Shown piece by piece: positions 17,198-52,998 of a DNA stretch of 64,000 bases (the first letter of the stretch is position 1; the number at the start of each line of letters is the position of its first letter). This stretch comes from Gemmatimonadota bacterium (GTDB lineage: Bacteria; Gemmatimonadota; Gemmatimonadetes; Palauibacterales; Palauibacteraceae). Where the stretch lies: the NCBI GenBank assembly GCA_021295785.1, contig JAGWBR010000016.1:1-64000 (forward strand), in the 5' to 3' direction. Under the pieces are notes generated by a model. It made no database searches, was not told the DNA's origin, and was given only the letters and a program-made list of their open reading frames with translations. A program made the position numbers and the translations under genes.

Positions 17198-17702
17198 TCA
17201 GTTTAGTGAGCTTTCTTTCCCCCCGTTGGCCGGCTTTGCGCCGTTGGCCGACGTGACGGGGATTGCACGGTTGATCCAGGCTTCCGCCAGGAGCTTGGCG
17301 GCCTTCGGCGGGCCTTTCACGAAGCGTCGGGTCTGGCGACGTAGGCCGTGGCCAGCACCTGCCGTCTGTTCTCGATCACCTCGGGCGCGGCCGAAGTAGA
17401 CCTGCTGGGGCGTGAGCAGGCTGATGCCGCCGTGGCGGTGTTCGGTGTTGTACCACTGGAAAAAGGTGCGGCAGAAATCCTTCGCGTCCTCGATACAGCC
17501 GAACCGGCTCGGGAAGCCCGGATGGTACTTGATGGTCTTGAACTGCACTTCCGAGTAGGGGTTGTCGTTCGAGACCCGGGGCCGGCCCAGCGACTGCGTG
17601 ACGCCCGGGTTGGCCAACAACTGCGCCGTGCACTTGGCGGTCATGATAGCTCCCCGGTCCGAGTGCAGCGTGAGCACCTGGGGCCGCGCGCCGTGGCTAG
17701 TT
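17198..17702 (-). pseudogene. 5'-truncated IS3-family transposase (OrfB, integrase core)
   Basis: The minus frame holds the last two thirds of an IS3-type DDE transposase: LHSDRGAIMTA with the second catalytic aspartate, NDNPYSEVQFKTIKYHPGFP with the catalytic glutamate, and WYNTEHRHGGI near the end. The first catalytic aspartate and everything before it are missing. Upstream of about 17700 the open frame continues into unrelated low-complexity sequence. No intact OrfA is seen, so the copy is inactive. Confidence 0.85.
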
Positions 17703-18299
17703 GAACTTGGGATTGATTGATTCCCATTATGGGACCCCAGACCGCATTCCGCAAGGCCTATTGGCAGCCATGTCGGGAGCAAATACATGTCCGGTTTTCG
17801 GAGCACGTGAATTGTCCGCTTTTCCAGACCGCCACCCTGCGAGGCGGGCGGAGCGAGCCGAGTGGGGCGGCGGCCAAACCGGAATAGAAATGTCCGGGGG
17901 TAGAGCGAAATAGAAATGTCCCCCCCTGGATGAGTATTTTCCACCCCCAGCCAGCCGTGGCGGGTAGGGGGTGGGGTGGGTGTAGTGGCCCCCCCCGGGC
18001 GGCCATGACGCCATAGGTATCCGATGATCGCCCGGCGGTTTTCCGCACCGTCATCGCGCTCGACGAAACAGGCCATCATCAGCCAACTCGTCGCATCGTC
18101 ATGGATCGAGATTCATGTGCTCCGAAAACAGAACATTCCATCAGTGTCCGCGAAACCCAGTTGGCGAGCAGTAGCGTGTATCGCTACATTGCGCCCGCTG
18201 TACCCTTGCTGTTTGTACACGGGCGGACGGGTTTGACGGGAGCGGGGCTCAAGGGACAGGCTCCGCGGGGTATGAACAGGCACCTGCACAACTAGCTAT
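17703..18299. mobile_element. Insertion-sequence debris, probably IS21-like ends
   Basis: No intact gene is seen. Between 17769 and 17935 there are repeated short units typical of multi-repeat insertion-sequence ends: TGTCGGGAGCAAAT at 17769, ATGTCCGG nearby, AATTGTCCGCTTTTCC at about 17808-17823, and two AATAGAAATGTCC units at about 17883 and 17908. The first two recur at 62172 in this window. The rest, to 18299, shows no coding signal beyond short spurious frames. Confidence 0.5.
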
Positions 18300-42871: not shown

Positions 42872-44524
42872 ATGGCCCACGACGCGACCCCGCCGGACCC
42901 GGCGGCAGTGGCGGCGAGTCCGGCAACACCGATTCGCGACCCGCACGGTACGTTCCCGCTCCGGGTGGCAGCCGTGGACGTCGGCTCGAACGCCCTGCGC
43001 TACAAAGTCGCCGAGTTCGAGAGCAAGACCAATTGCACGCAACTTGCCTCGGGCCGGGCACCCGTCAGGCTCGGCCACGCAGCTTTCCTTACGGGCAGCC
43101 TGTCGGCCGACGCAATGGACCGTGCGGTCGAGGCCCTGGCTGGGTTCGCCCGGGTGTTTGACGACATGGGAGTGGGATTGGTCAAGGGTGTTGCCACAAG
43201 CGCCGTTCGCGAAACCCGAAACGGCCCGGGGTTTGCGCAGCGCGTCCGGGAGGAAACGGGAATCGACCTCTATCCGATTTCCGGCACCGAAGAGGCCCGT
43301 CTGGTGTGGACGGCGGTTCGCTCCCGGGTGCAGCTCGGTGACGCCAAATGGATGTTGGTTGATCTGGGCGGGGGCAGCGTGGAGGTCTCCCTGGCCGACC
43401 GCAACGGGTTGATGTGGACAGAATCTCACACGATGGGCTCGGTGCGCTTGCTGGAAGAGCTTTCCGGTGCCTCCGACCCGCCCGCCCGGTTTGCCGGTCT
43501 GCTGGCCGATTACGCGTCAACCCTGCGGATCCCCCACGCGAGCAGGCACTGGACACCCGTGGGGCTGATAGCCACGGGCGGGAATATCGAAGACCTGGCG
43601 CGACTCGCCGGCCAGCCGCGCGCTCCCGGACTGCCCCATTACAAGCTGAGCCGGGAGCAACTGCGCGGGGCCATTGCCCGTCTGTCGGGAATGACAACGC
43701 GCCAGAGGGTGACGAAGCTGGGGATGCGCGAAGACCGCGCTGATGTGGTTCTGCCGGCGGCGATTGTCTATGACCGGGTGGCCGAGCTGGCCGGGGCCGA
43801 AGAAGTGATTGTGCCCTTCCTGGGGGTCCAGGACGGCCTGCTGGTGGATGCCGTGGAGGAGGCGTGCGAGGGCGACGACCTGGGCCGCGAAGAGCGCACC
43901 GCCCTGGAAGGAGCGCTCTCGCTGGGGCGCCGCTATTTGTTTGACGAAGCTCACGGCAGGCATGTGGCGACTCTGGCGCTCTCGCTGTTCGACCAGCTGG
44001 CCGGGGTGCACGGTCTGGCGGCTGCGGACCGCAGGCTCCTGCTAGCGGGAGCGGTCCTGCACGACATCGGTCTCCACGTCTCGCACCGCAAACACCACAA
44101 GCACTCGCGCTACCTTATCCAGAACTCGGAGATCTCCGGGGTTTCCATCTCGGAACTCCCGATTGTCGCGCTGCTCGCCCGGTACCACCGCCGCGCCGCG
44201 CCGCGCCCGTCGCACTACCTGTACCGGGACCTGGACGGGGCGACCCGAACGCGTGTGCGCCGCCTGGCCGCGATCCTGCGGGTGGCCGATTCGCTGGACC
44301 GGGAACACCTCCAAAGGGTGATTTCGGTGCGGGTCCGTCAGGTGGCCGGCGGCCTTGAACTCCATCTGGAAAAGACTGGGCGCACGCTTCTGGAAGAGTG
44401 GGCCCTGCGTCGCAAGGGGGGGCTGTTTGCTTCGGAATTCGGTCAGGAGCCGGTCGTGGCCAGGCCGGAAAAACCCGCTGCTGAAGACACCGCGGGGTTA
44501 GCCGCGGCGGGGCAGGCGCGTTGA
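42872..44524 (+). CDS. ppx: Exopolyphosphatase / guanosine pentaphosphatase (Ppx/GppA) with HD domain
   Basis: The 550-residue enzyme removes terminal phosphates from polyphosphate or pppGpp. The actin-like ATPase fold motifs are AAVDVGSNALRYKV (phosphate 1), LVDLGGGSVEVSL (phosphate 2) and GLIATGGNIEDL. A C-terminal HD domain (VLHDIGLHVSHRKHHKHS) follows at about residue 390, as in many Ppx proteins. It overlaps ppk1 by four bases, so synthesis and breakdown of polyphosphate are in one operon. Confidence 0.92.
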   Translation: MAHDATPPDPAAVAASPATPIRDPHGTFPLRVAAVDVGSNALRYKVAEFESKTNCTQLASGRAPVRLGHAAFLTGSLSADAMDRAVEALAGFARVFDDMGVGLVKGVATSAVRETRNGPGFAQRVREETGIDLYPISGTEEARLVWTAVRSRVQLGDAKWMLVDLGGGSVEVSLADRNGLMWTESHTMGSVRLLEELSGASDPPARFAGLLADYASTLRIPHASRHWTPVGLIATGGNIEDLARLAGQPRAPGLPHYKLSREQLRGAIARLSGMTTRQRVTKLGMREDRADVVLPAAIVYDRVAELAGAEEVIVPFLGVQDGLLVDAVEEACEGDDLGREERTALEGALSLGRRYLFDEAHGRHVATLALSLFDQLAGVHGLAAADRRLLLAGAVLHDIGLHVSHRKHHKHSRYLIQNSEISGVSISELPIVALLARYHRRAAPRPSHYLYRDLDGATRTRVRRLAAILRVADSLDREHLQRVISVRVRQVAGGLELHLEKTGRTLLEEWALRRKGGLFASEFGQEPVVARPEKPAAEDTAGLAAAGQAR

Positions 44525-46758
44525 CGAAGGCCGCGGCAGACACGGAGGCGGGCACTCCGGCCGAAGAGTCGGCAAGCATTGCGGAGGAAACGCCACCGGC
44601 AGCAGCCGTGATCTCGGCTCCCGGGGTGGCGCTGCCGGCGGCGGTCAGCCCCAGGCCGGCCCCGTCCGACTCTCACAAGACAGGGCACCCCGCCCTCTTC
44701 TTCAACCGCGAAGCCAGTTTGATGGACTTCAACTGGCGCGTCCTGAGCCAGGCGCTCGACGAGAGCAACCCGCTGCTGGAGCGCGTCCGTTTCCTGGCGA
44801 TAACCGCGTCGAACCTGGACGAGTTCGTAATGAAGCGGTTCGGTGGCCTGAAGCGCCAGCACGCAGCCGGCGTCGTCAAGCGGTCGCGCGACGGGAGGAC
44901 GCCGGAGGAACAGCTCGAACTGCTCAGAGGATCGATCACCGCCATGCGCCGGGAATTGTCCACCGTTTGGCGCGAAACGCTGAAGCCGTGCGTGGATGCC
45001 GAGGCGGGCCTCGTCATCAAGCGTTTTGATGAACTCGACGACGACGAGCGGCAGCATGTCGAGACCGAATTCCACAAACGGATTTACCCGCTCCTCACGC
45101 CCCTGACGGTCGATCCCGGGCACCCGTTCCCGTTCATCTCCAACCTCAGCCTTTCGCTGGCCGTCACCCTCTACCACCCCGAGCTGTCCACGCGCCACTT
45201 TGCCCGCGTGAAAATTCCCGTTGAGACCATAGGCAGCTGGGTGAAACTGCCCGCTCCCAATGCACTGGTTTCGTCGGCGGAGCTGGTGAAAGCCCTGGCC
45301 GCACACCTGTTCAGGGGAATGAGGATTGAGGAGGCCGCGCTCTTCCGCGTCATCCGAAACGCCGACATGCGGCGGAACGAGGAAGAGGCCGATGATCTGC
45401 TGCGGATGATTTCGGAGGAAGTACGCGAGCGGCGTTTTGCCCCGGTGGTCAGGCTCGACGTCGAACCGGGCATGTCGGCCGGAACGAGGCAGCTCCTGGC
45501 CGGAGAGCTGGAGCTGGAGGCCGTGGATGTTGCCGAGATCGACCCCCCGCTGGACGCCTCCGGGCTCGCGGAGTTGGTCGATCTGGGCCCGTGGACCCAT
45601 CGCTTCAAGCCGTGGAACCCGGCCATCCCCTCGCCGCTGCGTCCCGGGGAGCGCAGCGAAGAGGTGCCCGACATCTGGGCGGCCATTCGCCGGCGCGACC
45701 TGATGGTCCACCACCCCTACGATTCGTTCACGGCCTCGGTGGGCCATTTCATCGAGGCCGCGGCCGACGATCCGGATGTCCTCGCAATCAAGCAGACCGT
45801 ATACCGGACTTCGGCCGATTCCCCGGTAATCAACGCGCTGGAGAGGGCGGCGGAATCGGGCAAGCAAGTGGCGGTTCTCGTTGAGGTGACGGCCGCCTGG
45901 GACGAAGTCTCCAACATCGGCTGGGCCGCCCGGCTCGAAGAGGCAGGGGTACACGTCACCTATTCGCTGGTTGGCCTGAAGACGCACGCCAAGGCCGCTC
46001 TGGTTTTGAGACGGGAGGACGGCGAGATCAGGACCTACTGCCACATCGGCACGGGCAACTACAACAGTGACACTGCCCGGTTCTACACGGACATCGGCAT
46101 CTTCACGGCCCGCCCCGAAATAGGGACGGACACTGTGAACCTGTTTCATTTTCTTACCGGTTACGCCCCCGAGCAGCGTTACGAGAAGCTGATTGTCGGG
46201 CCGCGGGATCTCCGGTGGAGCGTGCTCAGGGCCATCCAGCGCGAGGGCAAGCATGCGCGAAAGGGCCGAGGCGGTCGGGTCATCATGAAAATGAACGGCC
46301 TGGACGACAAACGGTTGATCAGGGCTCTCTATGCGGCGTCGCGTTCAGGGGCCCGGATAGACCTGATTGTGCGGGGTGCCTGCCAGCTGCGGCCGGGACT
46401 GCCCGATTGGAGCGAGAACATTCGGGTCCGGAGCATCGTGGGCCGTTTTCTCGAACACGACAGAGTGCTCTGGTTTGGGAACGCGGGAGAACCCGAGGTA
46501 TGGATCGGAAGCGCGGATCTGCGCAAACGCAACATGGTGCACCGGGTCGAGGTCTTGATGCCGGTCGACGACGCCGACATCAGGGCGCGGCTGGAAAGCA
46601 TGCTGGACTTGGCCCTGCGGGACAACCAAAGGGCGTGGTCGCTTGGTCCCGACGGCAGCTGGACGCGGCTGGAACCGGATCCCGGTACCACCGGGGTGGA
46701 CTACCAGGCCGAACTGATGGAAGACGCCAGGAAACGCAGGAAGCCCCCCGCGCTCTAG
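44521..46758 (+). CDS. ppk1: Polyphosphate kinase 1
   Basis: Polymerises the gamma-phosphate of ATP into polyphosphate. The 745-residue protein has a Pro/Ala-rich N-terminal extension of about 55 residues, then the N domain (FFNREASLMDFNWRVL), the LDEFVMKRFG helix, and the phospholipase-D-like catalytic domains with the autophosphorylated histidine in CHIGTGNYN near residue 508. A TTG start overlaps the ppx stop. It ends 10 bp from the convergent phoU. Confidence 0.95.
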   Translation: MTKAAADTEAGTPAEESASIAEETPPAAAVISAPGVALPAAVSPRPAPSDSHKTGHPALFFNREASLMDFNWRVLSQALDESNPLLERVRFLAITASNLDEFVMKRFGGLKRQHAAGVVKRSRDGRTPEEQLELLRGSITAMRRELSTVWRETLKPCVDAEAGLVIKRFDELDDDERQHVETEFHKRIYPLLTPLTVDPGHPFPFISNLSLSLAVTLYHPELSTRHFARVKIPVETIGSWVKLPAPNALVSSAELVKALAAHLFRGMRIEEAALFRVIRNADMRRNEEEADDLLRMISEEVRERRFAPVVRLDVEPGMSAGTRQLLAGELELEAVDVAEIDPPLDASGLAELVDLGPWTHRFKPWNPAIPSPLRPGERSEEVPDIWAAIRRRDLMVHHPYDSFTASVGHFIEAAADDPDVLAIKQTVYRTSADSPVINALERAAESGKQVAVLVEVTAAWDEVSNIGWAARLEEAGVHVTYSLVGLKTHAKAALVLRREDGEIRTYCHIGTGNYNSDTARFYTDIGIFTARPEIGTDTVNLFHFLTGYAPEQRYEKLIVGPRDLRWSVLRAIQREGKHARKGRGGRVIMKMNGLDDKRLIRALYAASRSGARIDLIVRGACQLRPGLPDWSENIRVRSIVGRFLEHDRVLWFGNAGEPEVWIGSADLRKRNMVHRVEVLMPVDDADIRARLESMLDLALRDNQRAWSLGPDGSWTRLEPDPGTTGVDYQAELMEDARKRRKPPAL

Positions 46759-46768
46759 CACCGGCCCC

Positions 46769-47461
46769 TTAGGAGTTCGCTTTCGGCCCGCCGCCCGCCC
46801 TGTCAAGGCGCACTCCATGTCTGACGGTTCTGCCCTGCACCATGAAGATCACGTCCTCGGCGATGTTGGTCGCGAGGTCGGCGATTCGCTCCAAGTTGCG
46901 GCCGATGAGGATGACCTCAAGGCATCCCGAGATGTGGTGCTCGGGCATGTGGGTCAGCATGATCCTGACCAGCGAATCCAGCAGCTGATCGACCCGGTCG
47001 TCTCGCTCGCGCACAGCGGCGGCCTCGTCGGTGCTCTCATGCACGAACGCGTCCAGCGCATCTCCCAGCATTCCGCACGCAATCCGACCCATTTCACCCA
47101 GCTCGGGAGGCACAGGCACCTTCGTTTCGAGGCGGCCCAAACGGCCGGCTGCACGTGCGATATTGGCGGCGTGGTCGCCGATTCGCTCCAGGTCGTTGTT
47201 GATCTTCAGCACGGCAACGATAACCCTGAGGTCCCCGGCCCGCGGTTGGTGCAGGGCCAGCATTTCGATTGCCTTTTCTTCGATCTCCACTTCCTGCCGG
47301 TCGATGACCAGATCGCCCCTGATCACGTCCTCGGCCAGCTCGTCAATGTCCACGCCCCCGACAAGCGTAAGCGAGTCTTTCACCAGCTTTTCGACCTGGT
47401 GCGACATATGGTTGAGCGCGGTGGTCAGCGCGTCCAGGCGATCGTCAAGGGCCAGTGCCAC
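46769..47461 (-). CDS. phoU: Phosphate signalling protein PhoU
   Basis: PhoU links the Pst transporter to PhoR and keeps the Pho response off when phosphate is plentiful. The 230-residue, all-helical product shows both metal-binding repeats (NNDLERIGDHAANI and RNLERIADLATNIAED) and looks fully intact. It lies 6 bp after pstB. Its integrity contrasts with the degraded PstB next to it. Confidence 0.95.
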   Translation of the reverse strand: MALALDDRLDALTTALNHMSHQVEKLVKDSLTLVGGVDIDELAEDVIRGDLVIDRQEVEIEEKAIEMLALHQPRAGDLRVIVAVLKINNDLERIGDHAANIARAAGRLGRLETKVPVPPELGEMGRIACGMLGDALDAFVHESTDEAAAVRERDDRVDQLLDSLVRIMLTHMPEHHISGCLEVILIGRNLERIADLATNIAEDVIFMVQGRTVRHGVRLDRAGGGPKANS

Positions 47462-47467
47462 GGCGGG

Positions 47468-48247
47468 TTATCCAGTCCTCCCCGTAATGAATGCCTCTGT
47501 AAGCGGGTGCTCGGGGTTCGTGAACACACGCTCTGTCTCGCCAAACTCGACGAGTTCTCCGTCTTGGACGAAGGCCGTGTAATCGCTGATTCGCGAGGCC
47601 TGCCCCAAGTTCTCCGTAGCCAGCAGAATTGTATGGCGGCCGCGCAGCGAAACGATAATATCTTCGATCTTGCCGCTCTCGTTTCGGTCCAGGCCGGACG
47701 TGGGATGGTCCAGCAGGAGCGCCTCGGGTTCGACTGCCAGCGCCCGGGCAAGGCAAAGCCTCTGCATCTGGCCCGCGCCCAGCGCCATCGCACTCTGGTC
47801 CAGCCGGTCCCCGACCTCGGGCCAAAGCCCGGCCGTTTCCAAAGCGGTCTGAACCTGACGGTCGATATCGCCCCGATACCGGTTGATTCGAAGGCCAAAC
47901 GCCACGTTAAACGAGATCGAACGGGGGAAAAGCCCCGCCCGACCTGACACGAGCACGATCCGGCGCCGAAGCCCGGCCAGGTGCTCCGGCAGGCGGACCA
48001 GCTCCTCGTTTTCGCGAAAAACCGCCCCGCTCATTTCGGCTGCCCCATCCAGATCATGCATACGGTTGAAGCACCTGAGCAGCGCACCCTTCCCGGAACC
48101 GGCCGGCCCGACGATTGCGGTGACCTGGCCTCCGGGTGCCGCGAAAGACACCTCGGAAAGGACCCTGCGTCCGCCGCGCGTCACCGAAACCGAGGCGGCC
48201 CTCAGCCCCGGCGGCGCGAAATCAGCGGCGGCCAATGGAGGACCCAT
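47468..48247 (-). CDS. pstB: PstB-like ABC subunit with degenerate nucleotide-binding motifs
   Basis: By position and overall similarity this 259-residue protein is PstB, the ATPase of the phosphate transporter. Fold residues are kept (LLLD, ITGRTG end, LCLARALA), but every catalytic motif has changed. Walker A reads GPAGSGKG (residues 47-54, so the Ser/Thr after lysine is Gly). The Q-loop reads VSGRAG (residues 100-105, no Gln). The signature reads LGAGQ (156-160) instead of LSGGQ. Walker B reads LLLDHP (His 181 replaces the catalytic Glu). The switch region reads ATENLG (Glu 212 replaces His). The frame is complete and overlaps pstA by 26 bp. ATP hydrolysis is therefore doubtful. Nucleotide binding may remain. 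Confidence 0.85.
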   Translation of the reverse strand: MGPPLAAADFAPPGLRAASVSVTRGGRRVLSEVSFAAPGGQVTAIVGPAGSGKGALLRCFNRMHDLDGAAEMSGAVFRENEELVRLPEHLAGLRRRIVLVSGRAGLFPRSISFNVAFGLRINRYRGDIDRQVQTALETAGLWPEVGDRLDQSAMALGAGQMQRLCLARALAVEPEALLLDHPTSGLDRNESGKIEDIIVSLRGRHTILLATENLGQASRISDYTAFVQDGELVEFGETERVFTNPEHPLTEAFITGRTG

Positions 48248-49100
48248 GCACCAGGGTGGCCCCGGCGTTCAGGAGCAGCGTTCCCGCGAGGAGTACCAGC
48301 GCGGCCGCCCCCGCGAGCCCCCGGAAACGGGCGTCGGTGCTCTCGGTCCACTCGAACACCTGAACCGGCAGGGCGGTGAGCGGATCCAGCGGACTGGTAA
48401 CGTTCAGAGCGATGAACGTGAACGCTCCCAGCACGACCAGGGGAGCGGTCTCTCCCGCCGCCCGTGACAGGGCCCGCAGTGACGCCGCCGCGATCTGGCC
48501 CGCCGAGCCCGGAAGCACGGCGAACCTGATCGCCTGGAACGGGGTGGCGCCCAGCGCGTAGGCAGCCTCCACCTGCGCCCGGGGAACCGCCCGGACAACT
48601 TCGCGCGTGGCCCGGGTCAGCAGGGGCAGAACCAGTAGCGTCAGTGTGGCCGCGCCGGCCAGAAGGGTGTGGCCCATCGCCGCACCGCGGGCGAAAACGG
48701 CAAGGCCAACCAATCCGTAAACCACCGATGGCACCGATGCCAGGTACCCGATGTTGGAACCCAGAATCCGGGCCAGCCGCCGCTGCGGAAAGTAGGCATC
48801 AAGGTACACGGCCGAACCAACCGAGAGCGGGACGGCGACCAGACCCACCAGCGCGACCATCCAGACCGTGCCCAGCAGCAGGGGCCTGATGCCCGCCGAA
48901 GCTGGGTCAGAGGATGGCGCGTTCAAGAAAAAGTCCAAGGTCAGGTGCGGCGCGCCGAGCCACAGGGCATGAACGGCGACCAATACCAGCGGAGCCAGAG
49001 CTACGACCGCGGCCGCCGCGCAGGCCCGCCGGACAATCCGGTCGCTGCGATTCCGCTCCCGGATCGAGGCCGGAAACCCCTGATCAACCCGGGCCGTCAT
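48222..49100 (-). CDS. pstA: Phosphate ABC transporter permease PstA
   Basis: The 292-residue permease has six membrane segments and an intact coupling loop (EAAYALGATPFQAIRFAVLPGSAGQI) that normally docks on PstB. It starts with ATG overlapping the pstC stop (ATGA). Nothing suggests loss of the transport path itself. Confidence 0.93.
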   Translation of the reverse strand: MTARVDQGFPASIRERNRSDRIVRRACAAAAVVALAPLVLVAVHALWLGAPHLTLDFFLNAPSSDPASAGIRPLLLGTVWMVALVGLVAVPLSVGSAVYLDAYFPQRRLARILGSNIGYLASVPSVVYGLVGLAVFARGAAMGHTLLAGAATLTLLVLPLLTRATREVVRAVPRAQVEAAYALGATPFQAIRFAVLPGSAGQIAAASLRALSRAAGETAPLVVLGAFTFIALNVTSPLDPLTALPVQVFEWTESTDARFRGLAGAAALVLLAGTLLLNAGATLVHGSSIGRR

Positions 49101-49984
49101 CCCCCCGACCCTGCGCTATCGGGCAGCGGGTGCAGGCCGGCCGGCGTCGTTAGCGGCGCTCCAGTTCCACCCGACGTGAGCCGGCGTCCGATTGCCGTGA
49201 TTCCAACGGCCATCGCGCACAGCACGAGCCCCACCGCGAACACGGTTTCGTAGGGCCGACTGCCCGTGGCCGGGTCGCCCGTACCGGCCCCGAGTGTGAA
49301 CGCCGTGAGGGTCTGGATGCTCTCAAGCGGGTTCAGGGTGAATCGCGGGGTGGTTCCGGCGGCCAGGGTCACGATCATGGTCTCGCCCACGGCGCGCCCG
49401 AAGGCCAATACGACACTCGACATGATTCCGGCGCGGGCGGCCGGGACCACAACTCTCCTGGAGGCCTCGGTCGGGGTGGCTCCGAGGCCGAGTGCCGCCT
49501 CCTTGAGTGCCGGGTTGACGTTGCTGATGGAGCGCTCCGACATGGACGTGATCATGGGCAACACCATGATTGCCACCACTGCCGAGGCGCTCGCCGCGCT
49601 GAACACGCCGGCGCCGGGAAGCACGGCCCTCACCAAGGGAGTCACGAAGAAAACGGCGAAGAACCCGTAGACCACGGTCGGAATCCCCGCCATCATCTCC
49701 AGCATGGGGCGCACTATTCGCTGCGTGCCGGCCGAAGCGAACTCGCTCAGAAACACGGCGCATCCCAGGCCCAGCGGCAATGCGATTACCCCTGCCCCGA
49801 TCGCGACCAGAAGAGTGCCGTTGAGCAGCCTCAGGAACCCGGCGAGGCCCGCCGGGCCAGCGTCGGCAAGGCCCGCGAAGAAACCCCACGATTCGGAGAT
49901 GAGCACGGCCACGATGCCCACGGTGGCCAGGGCCGATCCCAGCGCGCACAACCGCAGGGCGTGACCGCCCAGCCTGTCGGTCAT
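49097..49984 (-). CDS. pstC: Phosphate ABC transporter permease PstC
   Basis: The 295-residue permease has six membrane segments and the coupling loop EAALGLGATPTEASRRVVVP followed by FGRAVGETM. The start ATG overlaps the stop of phoR-pstS. Together with PstA it forms the membrane channel. Confidence 0.93.
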   Translation of the reverse strand: MTDRLGGHALRLCALGSALATVGIVAVLISESWGFFAGLADAGPAGLAGFLRLLNGTLLVAIGAGVIALPLGLGCAVFLSEFASAGTQRIVRPMLEMMAGIPTVVYGFFAVFFVTPLVRAVLPGAGVFSAASASAVVAIMVLPMITSMSERSISNVNPALKEAALGLGATPTEASRRVVVPAARAGIMSSVVLAFGRAVGETMIVTLAAGTTPRFTLNPLESIQTLTAFTLGAGTGDPATGSRPYETVFAVGLVLCAMAVGITAIGRRLTSGGTGAPLTTPAGLHPLPDSAGSGG

Positions 49985-52302
49985 TGGCTCGAACCCCGGC
50001 GGGCCTCGCTCAGCCGCCGTCTCTGGGCGTGGTAGGCGTCATCGTCAAGCGCGAAGTACCCTGCCGCACTGGTAAAACGGTCCACTCCGTCCAGCAGAAA
50101 AGAGACGAAGTTCCACACCTCGGGACGCCGCAAGGAAGCCTGTCCCACGTACATGTAGATGGTCCGCGCGAGCGGATACGCGCCAGTCACGACCGCGTTC
50201 TCGGAAGGCGGCTGGCAGCCGGCTCCTGCATTGACCGAGATCGTCTTCACCCCGCCGGGGTCGCGCTGCAGTTTCCCCCGGCCCAGAAAACCCAGCGAAC
50301 CGGCGTCACCGCTGACCCCCCTCAGGAGCGCGTCGCTGTGGGGGTTGGAGGCGTAATCGTTCCGACTTTCCCCGGGCCGGCCCATCACGGCGGTAGTGAA
50401 AAAATCAAACGTCCCCGAGTCGGGCCCGGGGCCGTAGAGCAACAGATCGTCGCCCGGCCACTCCGGGCGGACCTGTCCCCACGTGCGGACAGCGGAACCG
50501 GGCTCCCAGATGCCGCGGAGCTCCTCCACCGAAAGGCACTCGACCCAGTTGCTGGCGGGATGGGCGACCACTGCGATCCCGTCGCGGGCCAGGGCGACCT
50601 CGACCGGCTCAATTCCCCTGCGGCGGCAGGTCGCACGCTCGGCGCCCGTCATCCTCCGCGAGGCGTTGCTGATGTCGACCCAACCCTCGCAAAACTTCAC
50701 AAAGCCGCCCGTCGTGCCCGAGGTGCCGACGGCCAGGCGGGCCCGGGGATGCTCGGCGCGAAACGCGGTCGCGGCGGCCTCGGTGATGGGCCGAACCGTG
50801 CTCGATCCGTCAATCCAAACGGGATCGGGCGCCGCGCAGCCGGCAGACACGGCCAGGGCGGCAACAACGGCCAGCGTGGCAATGTCTCGCCGGTCCCGGA
50901 CGTTCCCGCGGAAATGTCCGGTGTTTTTTCGGCCGGTGCCCTCGGGCTCGCCCGGCGGCGGCGAATCCGGGGTCAATGAGCCCGGGAGCGTGAACCAAAC
51001 GGTGGTGCCCTCGCCCACGCCCGTCTCGATGCCCGTTTCGCCACCGTGCGCACCCACCAAGTGCTTGACGATGGCCAGCCCGAGCCCGGTCCCGCCGCCC
51101 TCGCGGGAGCGGTCCGGGTCTACACGATAGAACCGTTCAAATACCCGGTCTACCTGATCCGAAGGAATACCGGGGCCGCCGTCGGAAACCTCCACCCGCA
51201 ACCACTCCGCCCGCCCCTCCAAAGGCCTGAACCTGATTCGGATCGCCGTCTCGGCGGGAGCGTACCTGAGCGCGTTCTCGATCAGGTTCCGCAGCACCTG
51301 CCGGACCGCACGGGCATCGGCGGTTACGCGCGCGTCCGAGGCATCCGGGTCTACGTCGAGCGTCACCCCGTCGGCGGCCAGGCCCGCGGGCAAATCTCGC
51401 CAAACCGTCTCCGCCACACCCCGCACTGCAACCGGTTCGACTGAGGGGCTCCAGCTGCCCGACTCAACGTGCGACAGCTCCAACAAGTCGTCCACCAGGC
51501 GCCGCATGCGAGTGGCGTTCACCAAGATCCTCTCCGCGAATTCCGAAGAGAGCCCGGCCCCCAGGTTCGGATCAGAAATAGCCTCCGCGAACCCGACCAC
51601 GCTGGTGAGGGGAGTCTTCATTTCGTGCGAGACATTGGCCACGAAGTCCCGCCGCATCTGTTCCAACAGCCGGCGGTCGGTCAAGTCTCGCAGAAGCAGC
51701 AGGGCGCCTCCGTCGTGGTGCACCGCCCGCACCAGCACGGTGCGCTCTCCGACCGATGTTTCCCGCGAAACCGGCTCGCCGGCCGCGGCTCGTTCCGCCG
51801 CCTCGGGGATCGACGGATCCCGGAAGATCACGCTCAGCTGCGAACCACGCGGCGCGGGTCGGCCCGCCAGTGTCTCCAGTGCGGTGTTCCGGGCCTGCAC
51901 GCGTCCCTCCGCGTCGACCAGCGCGACAGCGTCGTCCAACCCCTCCAACACGGCCGACAGGTTGTCCCGCGCACGCCGCGCCGCTGCGAGCCCGGTCTCG
52001 AGGCGAACCCCAATCCGGTCGACCGCCCTGCCGAGAGCCTCGGTCTGCCCGCCCGCCCCGGCTCCCGTCCGGGCCGCGAAATCGCCGGCGGCGAGACGCT
52101 CGGCCGCCGACTGAACGGACATGAGCCGGCGGGCGAGGGGCCGCGCCTCGACCACGGCGAGCACCCCGGCGGTCGTGGTCGATGCCGCCAGACCGAGCAA
52201 AAGCTGGGCCGGTGGTGCCGGACCGAGCAGCAGCCAGAACGCAAGAACGGTAGCCGCCCCGATTCCGGTGTATGCCAAAAAAACGCGCAGTGGCGGGTTC
52301 AC
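49981..52302 (-). CDS. phoR-pstS: PhoR sensor kinase fused to PstS phosphate-binding protein
   Basis: One 773-codon frame carries two normally separate proteins. Residues 1-440 are a PhoR-type histidine kinase: two membrane segments (about 7-27 and 32-52), a HAMP-like stretch, a PAS domain (about 113-208), the phospho-accepting His226 in VSHEMKTPLTS, the N-box with N343, and the ATP motifs DGGPGIP (374-380) and GGGTGLGLAI (402-411). A Pro/Gly-rich linker of about 30 residues leads to a hydrophobic segment (474-488) ending in a lipobox-like SAGC (Cys489). From 495 on is PstS: GSSTVRPITEAA, TSGTTGGFVKF, GPDSGTFDFF. The topology is self-consistent: kinase inside, PstS outside. Start GTG 52302 directly abuts the phoB stop. 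The product may stay joined or be cut at Cys489. Confidence 0.88.
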   Translation of the reverse strand: MNPPLRVFLAYTGIGAATVLAFWLLLGPAPPAQLLLGLAASTTTAGVLAVVEARPLARRLMSVQSAAERLAAGDFAARTGAGAGGQTEALGRAVDRIGVRLETGLAAARRARDNLSAVLEGLDDAVALVDAEGRVQARNTALETLAGRPAPRGSQLSVIFRDPSIPEAAERAAAGEPVSRETSVGERTVLVRAVHHDGGALLLLRDLTDRRLLEQMRRDFVANVSHEMKTPLTSVVGFAEAISDPNLGAGLSSEFAERILVNATRMRRLVDDLLELSHVESGSWSPSVEPVAVRGVAETVWRDLPAGLAADGVTLDVDPDASDARVTADARAVRQVLRNLIENALRYAPAETAIRIRFRPLEGRAEWLRVEVSDGGPGIPSDQVDRVFERFYRVDPDRSREGGGTGLGLAIVKHLVGAHGGETGIETGVGEGTTVWFTLPGSLTPDSPPPGEPEGTGRKNTGHFRGNVRDRRDIATLAVVAALAVSAGCAAPDPVWIDGSSTVRPITEAAATAFRAEHPRARLAVGTSGTTGGFVKFCEGWVDISNASRRMTGAERATCRRRGIEPVEVALARDGIAVVAHPASNWVECLSVEELRGIWEPGSAVRTWGQVRPEWPGDDLLLYGPGPDSGTFDFFTTAVMGRPGESRNDYASNPHSDALLRGVSGDAGSLGFLGRGKLQRDPGGVKTISVNAGAGCQPPSENAVVTGAYPLARTIYMYVGQASLRRPEVWNFVSFLLDGVDRFTSAAGYFALDDDAYHAQRRRLSEARRGSSQ

Positions 52303-52998
52303 CTATCGATCCGAGGCCCGGAACCGATACCCGATGCCACGCACCGTCTCGAGCCGGTCGGCCTCATCGCCCAGCTTGGCGCGGATTCTGGCGATATGCA
52401 TGTCGACGGTCCTCGATTCCAGCTTCGACCGGGGCCCCCACACCGACTCCAGTAGATGGCTGCGGGACTGCGCCCGTCCCCGTCGCTCCAGCAGAATGGC
52501 CAAAAGGCGATACTCCAGGGGTGTGAGATCAACCTCTTGGTTCGACACAAACGCCCGGTGGGCATCACGGTCCAGTGCGACCGGTCCGACCACCAGGCGA
52601 CGGCCCGCCGAAACCGGGTCTGCCTTTGCCCGCCGAAGCAAGGCCTCCAGCCGAAGCGTCAGTTCTTTGGCACTGAACGGCTTTGTGATGTAATCATCGG
52701 CCCCCACCTCGAATCCCCGCACGCGTTCTTCCTCTTCGCGCCGCGCGGTGAGCAGAATCACGGGCAGCGATGCGACGCGTTCGTCGCGGCGGAGTCGGCT
52801 CAGCACCTCGTACCCGTCCATACCGGGGAGCATCAAATCCAAAACGATCGCGTCCGGGCGGTCTGTAATCGCTGACTTGAGCGCGCTCTCGCCGTTTACG
52901 GCGGTTGAAACCCGGTACCCCTCCCGGCTGAGATGGTAAACCAGCAGGCTGAGGATATCGGGTTCGTCGTCGACAACGAGTATCTGAGCATCTGGCAT
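52303..52998 (-). CDS. phoB: Phosphate response regulator PhoB
   Basis: OmpR-type response regulator of 231 residues. The receiver has the acidic pocket and phospho-acceptor in IVLDLMLPGMDGYE and the lysine in DDYITKPFSAKEL. The C-terminal winged helix ends in RTVDMHIARIRAKLGDEADRLETVRGIGYRF. It controls genes for phosphate starvation by binding 11-bp direct repeats, and such repeats lie upstream. Start ATG 52998 is the only one that fits the receiver N-terminus (MPDAQILVVDDE); upstream extensions are leader. Confidence 0.95.
   Translation of the reverse strand: MPDAQILVVDDEPDILSLLVYHLSREGYRVSTAVNGESALKSAITDRPDAIVLDLMLPGMDGYEVLSRLRRDERVASLPVILLTARREEEERVRGFEVGADDYITKPFSAKELTLRLEALLRRAKADPVSAGRRLVVGPVALDRDAHRAFVSNQEVDLTPLEYRLLAILLERRGRAQSRSHLLESVWGPRSKLESRTVDMHIARIRAKLGDEADRLETVRGIGYRFRASDR

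Follow-up and report, generated by a model that had tools for sequence, protein, structure and literature searches.

The window analysed here is a stretch of 64,000 nucleotides from a Gemmatimonadota bacterium (assembly GCA_021295785.1, contig JAGWBR010000016.1, positions 1 to 64,000 of the forward strand). It contains a pst operon that runs leftward and encodes a PhoB-type regulator, an ORF of 773 amino acids with a kinase and a PstS part, PstC, PstA, PstB and PhoU. A convergent ppk and then ppx follow beyond phoU, and the congeners share this order. The genes were assigned as follows:

42872..44524, plus strand: ppx/gppA-type gene, order shared with the congeners (synteny)
44521..46758, plus strand: ppk, convergent with the operon, order shared with the congeners (synteny)
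46769..47461, minus strand: phoU, conserved at a normal rate (family match, rates)
47468..48247, minus strand: pstB, 259 amino acids, degenerate catalytic motifs, open frame (sequence, predicted fold)
48222..49100, minus strand: pstA, accelerated, pore Arg (E. coli R220) retained (family match, alignment, rates)
49097..49984, minus strand: pstC, accelerated, pore residues (E. coli R237, E241) retained (family match, alignment, rates)
49981..52302, minus strand: ORF of 773 amino acids, PhoR-type histidine kinase (residues ~1-440) followed in frame by a lipoprotein-type signal and PstS (residues ~468-773)
52303..52998, minus strand: phoB-type response regulator, from MPDAQ, conserved at a normal rate (family match, rates)

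The reading frames overlap at the pstS-pstC, pstC-pstA and pstA-pstB borders, and pstB is separated from phoU by 6 nt. Between the end of the kinase and the signal of PstS there is no in-frame ATG or GTG, only a TTG, and kinase and PstS are separate genes in the congeners examined. A PhoR-PstS fusion in the window is therefore likely from the reading frame; no such fusion was found among the listed results of a literature search of open-access full text. The pstB gene was identified as the orthologue by its position between pstA and phoU, which is syntenic with the congeners. A horizontal origin of the locus was ruled out by the synteny and by the trees of the neighbouring genes, and in the trees of PstA, PstC, PhoU and PhoB the locus grouped with the congeners. 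We take this to be the genus's own phosphate transporter operon, passed on by vertical descent. Elsewhere in the window, at 17198-18079 on the minus strand, the C-terminal half of an ORF resembles the remnant of an integrase-type transposase, as read from the translation only.

The pstB frame starts with ATG and has no internal stop in the ORF reading. Its catalytic motifs were read directly from the sequence:

48083..48109, minus strand: Walker A segment GPAGSGKGA, residues 47-55 (sequence reading)
47942..47944, minus strand: Q-loop position 102, Q102G, in VSGRAGLF (sequence reading)
47768..47782, minus strand: ABC signature LGAGQ, residues 156-160 (sequence reading)
47705..47707, minus strand: Walker B catalytic Glu to His, E181H, in LLLDHP (sequence reading)
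47612..47614, minus strand: switch His to Glu, H212E, in ATEN (sequence reading)

The Walker A changes are S54G and T55A, giving GKG, and the signature changes are S157G and G158A. The Tyr of the A-loop is likewise missing (Y24R). Of the five elements checked, namely Walker A, the Q-loop, the signature, the Walker B Glu and the switch His, none is intact in this protein. An earlier note on this DNA had described these altered motifs in an intact gene, and the motifs, the coordinates and the open frame were found as described, with the gene lying on the minus strand and encoding 259 residues. Its statement that every motif is altered holds in that all catalytic motifs are changed, but it is wrong if taken to mean that nothing is left, since G47, G50, G52 and K53 of Walker A, G159 and Q160 of the signature, D180 of Walker B and D187 of the D-loop are retained. 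Positions 181 and 212 together form a reciprocal exchange of Glu and His, for which the codon table demands at least two nucleotide changes per codon.

In ABC ATPases the loss of the Mg-binding Ser/Thr, the loss of the Q-loop Gln and a change in the signature each lower the activity. From the motif losses we infer that hydrolysis is absent, PstB being then a pseudo-ATPase, and that this Pst would no longer transport. An AlphaFold model of the protein reached a pLDDT of 88.3 and matched E. coli PstB structures with TM scores of 0.88-0.90 (0.90 to 9k3x). The sequence appears compatible with the ABC nucleotide-binding fold, short of proof, as canonical homologues were present in the alignment behind the model.

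To see how unusual this PstB is, we counted the losses in 64 columns with a conservation of at least 97% among 108 other PstBs. The window PstB lost 16 of them, compared with 0-4 in ordinary PstBs, and its motif losses are beyond chance. The TIGR00972 profile gave 242 bits, under the curated cut-off of 343.2 and still by far the best family match. Among the 394 genomes of the class that were surveyed, 299 had a PstB match at E <= 1e-57, and the lowest best score of these 299 was that of the window's own genome. By score, a measure that mild cases would escape, no further PstB of such degeneracy was apparent in the 394 genomes. Searching GTDB r220 with the window PstB returned nearest relatives at about 50% identity, and the matches listed span scattered phyla. 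The congeners have canonical or near-canonical motifs, a result that the earlier note had named as refuting its reading, since it would point to recent decay or sequence error. In the PstB tree, however, the terminal branch of the window protein is 1.27, compared with at most 0.30 for all other PstBs, which argues against both an error and a very recent event. The protein sits deep in the clade of the class, as expected of a long branch. A dN/dS analysis was unusable because there is a single genome, 85% complete, with no relative closer than about 50% identity and saturated distances. No naturally ATPase-dead PstB was found among the listed results of the literature searches (open-access full text).

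The rates of the operon's products were then compared relative to a family outgroup. PhoB (1.24), PhoR (1.10) and PhoU (1.13) were close to normal, whereas PstS (1.93), PstC (2.01), PstA (2.35) and PstB (2.59) were fast. The same division was seen in the invariant columns lost, with 3% in PhoU, 4% in PhoB and 8% in PhoR against 19% in PstS, 24% in PstC, 26% in PstA and 36% in PstB; the Pst subunits of every other genome compared lost at most 12%. The regulation is conserved, including PhoU as the earlier note had it, and the whole transporter is accelerated. PstB retained 65 of 102 group-invariant columns. Its excess change is nearly uniform over the conservation classes (survival 0.74, 0.74, 0.73, 0.59 and 0.56; difference not significant), which is the pattern of lost constraint and counts against a kept role. 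The losses were modestly enriched in the motif segments (27 of 58, compared with 10 of 44 elsewhere, p = 0.02), an enrichment that was gone when a narrow set of ATP contacts was used (p = 0.78).

Stops or frameshifts of a pseudogene were not found, as pstB, pstA, pstC and the pstS part are all open. A neutral model, in which the entire excess, sized from the relative rates to the outgroup, is assumed to be neutral, expects about 3.7, 3.8, 2.2 and 4.6 stops in pstB, pstA, pstC and pstS, respectively. Over the four frames of about 1140 codons, 0 stops were observed and about 14 expected; the joint neutral chance of four open frames is P ~1e-6 with indels left uncounted. The pore residues R237 and E241 of PstC and R220 of PstA (E. 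coli numbering) are retained, and the coupling loops of PstA and PstC, which the earlier note had called normal, are near normal in the alignment. In PstS, all 8 aligned phosphate-contact positions correspond to the consensus of the relatives, which agree in 17 of 17 at seven positions and in 16 of 17 at the remaining one; the protein aligns only weakly with PstS of E. coli. Retention of all 11 phosphate and pore residues is not significant on its own (chance ~0.08, estimated from the loss rates).

The earlier note had suggested looking for a second, canonical pstB. None was found in the assembled genome, which at 85% completeness makes the absence likely but not proven, and the assembly, with 15% missing, also contains no heterodimer partner that would restore one canonical composite site. 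By TIGR00972, the next ABC ATPase of the genome scored 131 bits. The congeners have one pstB at the locus or a tandem pair and no dispersed copies. A full-length PiT importer is encoded in the genome (PHO4 395 bits; G000:C10:40880-42028; L189, L223), and no Na/Pi cotransporter was recognisable in the assembly. This PiT is nearer to the PHO4 profile than the PHO4 proteins that most congeners have, which are divergent.

Four congeners, G010, G011, G003 and G007 (pst operons L145, L146, L147 and L228), lack PstS both at the locus and elsewhere in the genome by TIGR02136. They retain PstC, PstA and PhoU, all evolving at a normal rate, as well as PstB, with a rate of 1.1x. In the three that were read for motifs, PstB has LSNGQ and a switch His to Asn change and is otherwise conserved. 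They carry another PBP-like protein, as do the congeners with PstS; it is no simple replacement of PstS, though it could serve. A further congener (G002) has no PstB, no PstS and no PhoU. Partial loss of Pst function is recurrent in the genus, and PhoU goes with PstCAB. A second PBP_like_2 protein occurs in genomes of the genus (for example G010:C29:173522-174166), is missing from the assembled window genome and in several genomes shares its contig with a divergent PHO4 protein.

Tandem PstB1/PstB2 pairs with complementary defects were observed in G013, G006, G046 and G058 (L149, L150, L237, L239). PstB1 kept LSGGQ and lost the Q-loop Gln and the switch His; PstB2 has an LSLEE or LPLEA signature and is otherwise canonical. 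Such sequences predict a heterodimer that pairs a canonical with a degenerate site, an arrangement stable across two families. In other tandem pairs of the class (L233, L234, L235, L236) both copies are canonical.

The window Pst may have retained a signalling role. Tentatively, and at somewhat less than an even chance, we favour a transport-dead Pst that is kept as the signalling partner of PhoU and PhoR, with PiT importing the phosphate. The membrane complex would have lost ATP-driven transport but stayed on to work with PhoU and PhoR. PstS, which shares its frame with the kinase, would still bind periplasmic phosphate. PstCA and the pseudo-ATPase PstB would serve as a scaffold, and PhoU and the PhoR kinase would read its conformation or its occupancy. 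The phosphate itself would enter via PiT. For the kept role speak the four open frames, since neutral drift of such size would give stops, and the alteration of all hydrolysis motifs in a protein that kept its fold. It is also supported by the different rates of regulators and transporter, by the retained phosphate-contact and pore residues in a genome with PiT, and by the congeners, of which those lacking PstS keep PstCAB-PhoU and the one lacking Pst is also without PhoU. Transport-dead PstB variants of E. coli still signal, which adds to this; that their signals are constant and not responsive was counted against it (PMC5775613). A more specific version is a phosphate transceptor, in which a complete but non-transporting PstSCAB with a pseudo-ATPase PstB, its PstS joined to the PhoR kinase, only senses periplasmic phosphate and PiT imports it. 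This version we consider rather unlikely.

The interpretation in the earlier note is plausible and finds support in the normally evolving regulators, in the presence of PiT and in the absence of a second PstB from the assembly, but it had been stated too firmly. The open frame is genuine evidence, yet the faster change in all four subunits points just as strongly to a loss of constraint. Its argument from the open frame to a selected role stood insofar as the frames exceed the neutral expectation; it is weakened by the acceleration, by the uniform PstB excess and by the overlaps, which may hold the frames open for phoU. Pst could be a decaying vestige: PiT took over the uptake, PhoU and PhoR read cytoplasmic phosphate directly, and a strongly relaxed PstSCAB keeps its frames open by polarity on phoU, as stops upstream of it across the overlaps and the 6-nt gap would be polar, and by incomplete decay. 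With this agree the acceleration of all four transporter subunits, the uniform excess in PstB, the PiT gene, the congener without Pst and PhoU, the four without a PstS at the locus and M. smegmatis, where PhoU senses phosphate and controls SenX3 without Pst (PMC12301784). The missing stops, the 65 retained PstB columns, the well-predicted fold and the retained phosphate-contact and pore residues argue against a vestige, which we regard as a serious possibility on the unlikely side. The data do not cleanly part a relaxed from a repurposed Pst, and hence both readings are held with reserve.

For the proposal in the earlier note that another ATPase powers Pst, no positive evidence was found. A shared ABC ATPase, or a canonical PstB encoded on the 15% missing from the assembly, would fit the incomplete genome, the near-normal coupling loops and the complementing PstB pairs that seem to exist in relatives. 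We judge continued transport improbable, as the next-best ABC ATPase stays far below the window PstB and the cut-off, the congeners have no dispersed pstB, and accelerated PstA, PstC and PstS speak against intact transport. Moreover, both half-sites of the window PstB are damaged, and a canonical partner would still leave two defective composite sites. That PstB itself continues to hydrolyse ATP at a rebuilt site, E181H/H212E keeping a Glu-His pair at the gamma-phosphate, has in its favour the exactness of the exchange, its cost in nucleotide changes and the retained Walker A Lys and Walker B Asp. It is very improbable, because Walker A no longer has its Mg-binding Ser/Thr, the Q-loop has lost its Gln and the signature is changed, and no homologue with the E/H exchange occurs among the PstBs read. 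Least probable of all is an assembly or sequencing artefact. The sequence is a singleton from a draft genome, but many changes need several nucleotides with the frame left open, three neighbouring genes follow the same trend, and the synteny is conserved on a 76-kb contig.

It is still debated what the Pho response reads, be it the flux of phosphate through Pst, the shape that Pst takes or the phosphate in the cytoplasm. If the window Pst is a true sensor, a natural Pst with its partners but no motor would set signalling apart from transport with no engineering needed. If it is a decaying vestige, it would show that PhoU-PhoR persist after Pst transport is gone, and this would argue for cytoplasmic sensing.

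The locus resembles the PstSCAB-PhoU-PhoBR system of E. coli (PstB structures 9k3s, 9k3x, 9k3y) in gene content, operon logic, PstB fold, pore residues and PhoU, and differs from it by the degenerate PstB motifs, the PstS in the kinase frame and the accelerated transporter. The E. coli PstB mutants Q160K and E179Q do not transport, and one sends a replete and the other a starvation signal to PhoR (PMC5775613). They share with the window a PstB that would be unable to drive transport, in a complex that in E. coli still affects PhoR; theirs is one engineered change each, whereas the window change is natural and affects several sites. Degenerate motifs in an ABC ATPase subunit are also found in the heterodimeric TAP, CFTR and MsRv1273c/72c (PMC12038006), but these pair a degenerate with a canonical site, whereas in the window both half-sites are degenerate and no partner was found. 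The tandem PstB1/PstB2 of Enterococcus belong to the same family and have canonical motifs, in contrast to the single degenerate PstB here (PMC12096839). In Caulobacter, PitA can take the place of Pst in uptake, and PhoB nonetheless continues to follow Pst (PMC11208175). The PhoU of M. smegmatis controls its kinase SenX3 with phosphate and without Pst (PMC12301784); PhoU and kinase are kept as in the window and Pst may be dispensable for sensing, but the M. smegmatis Pst is a working transporter. The E. coli and Caulobacter results agree with a transport-dead Pst that acts as a sensor, and the M. smegmatis result agrees with a vestige.
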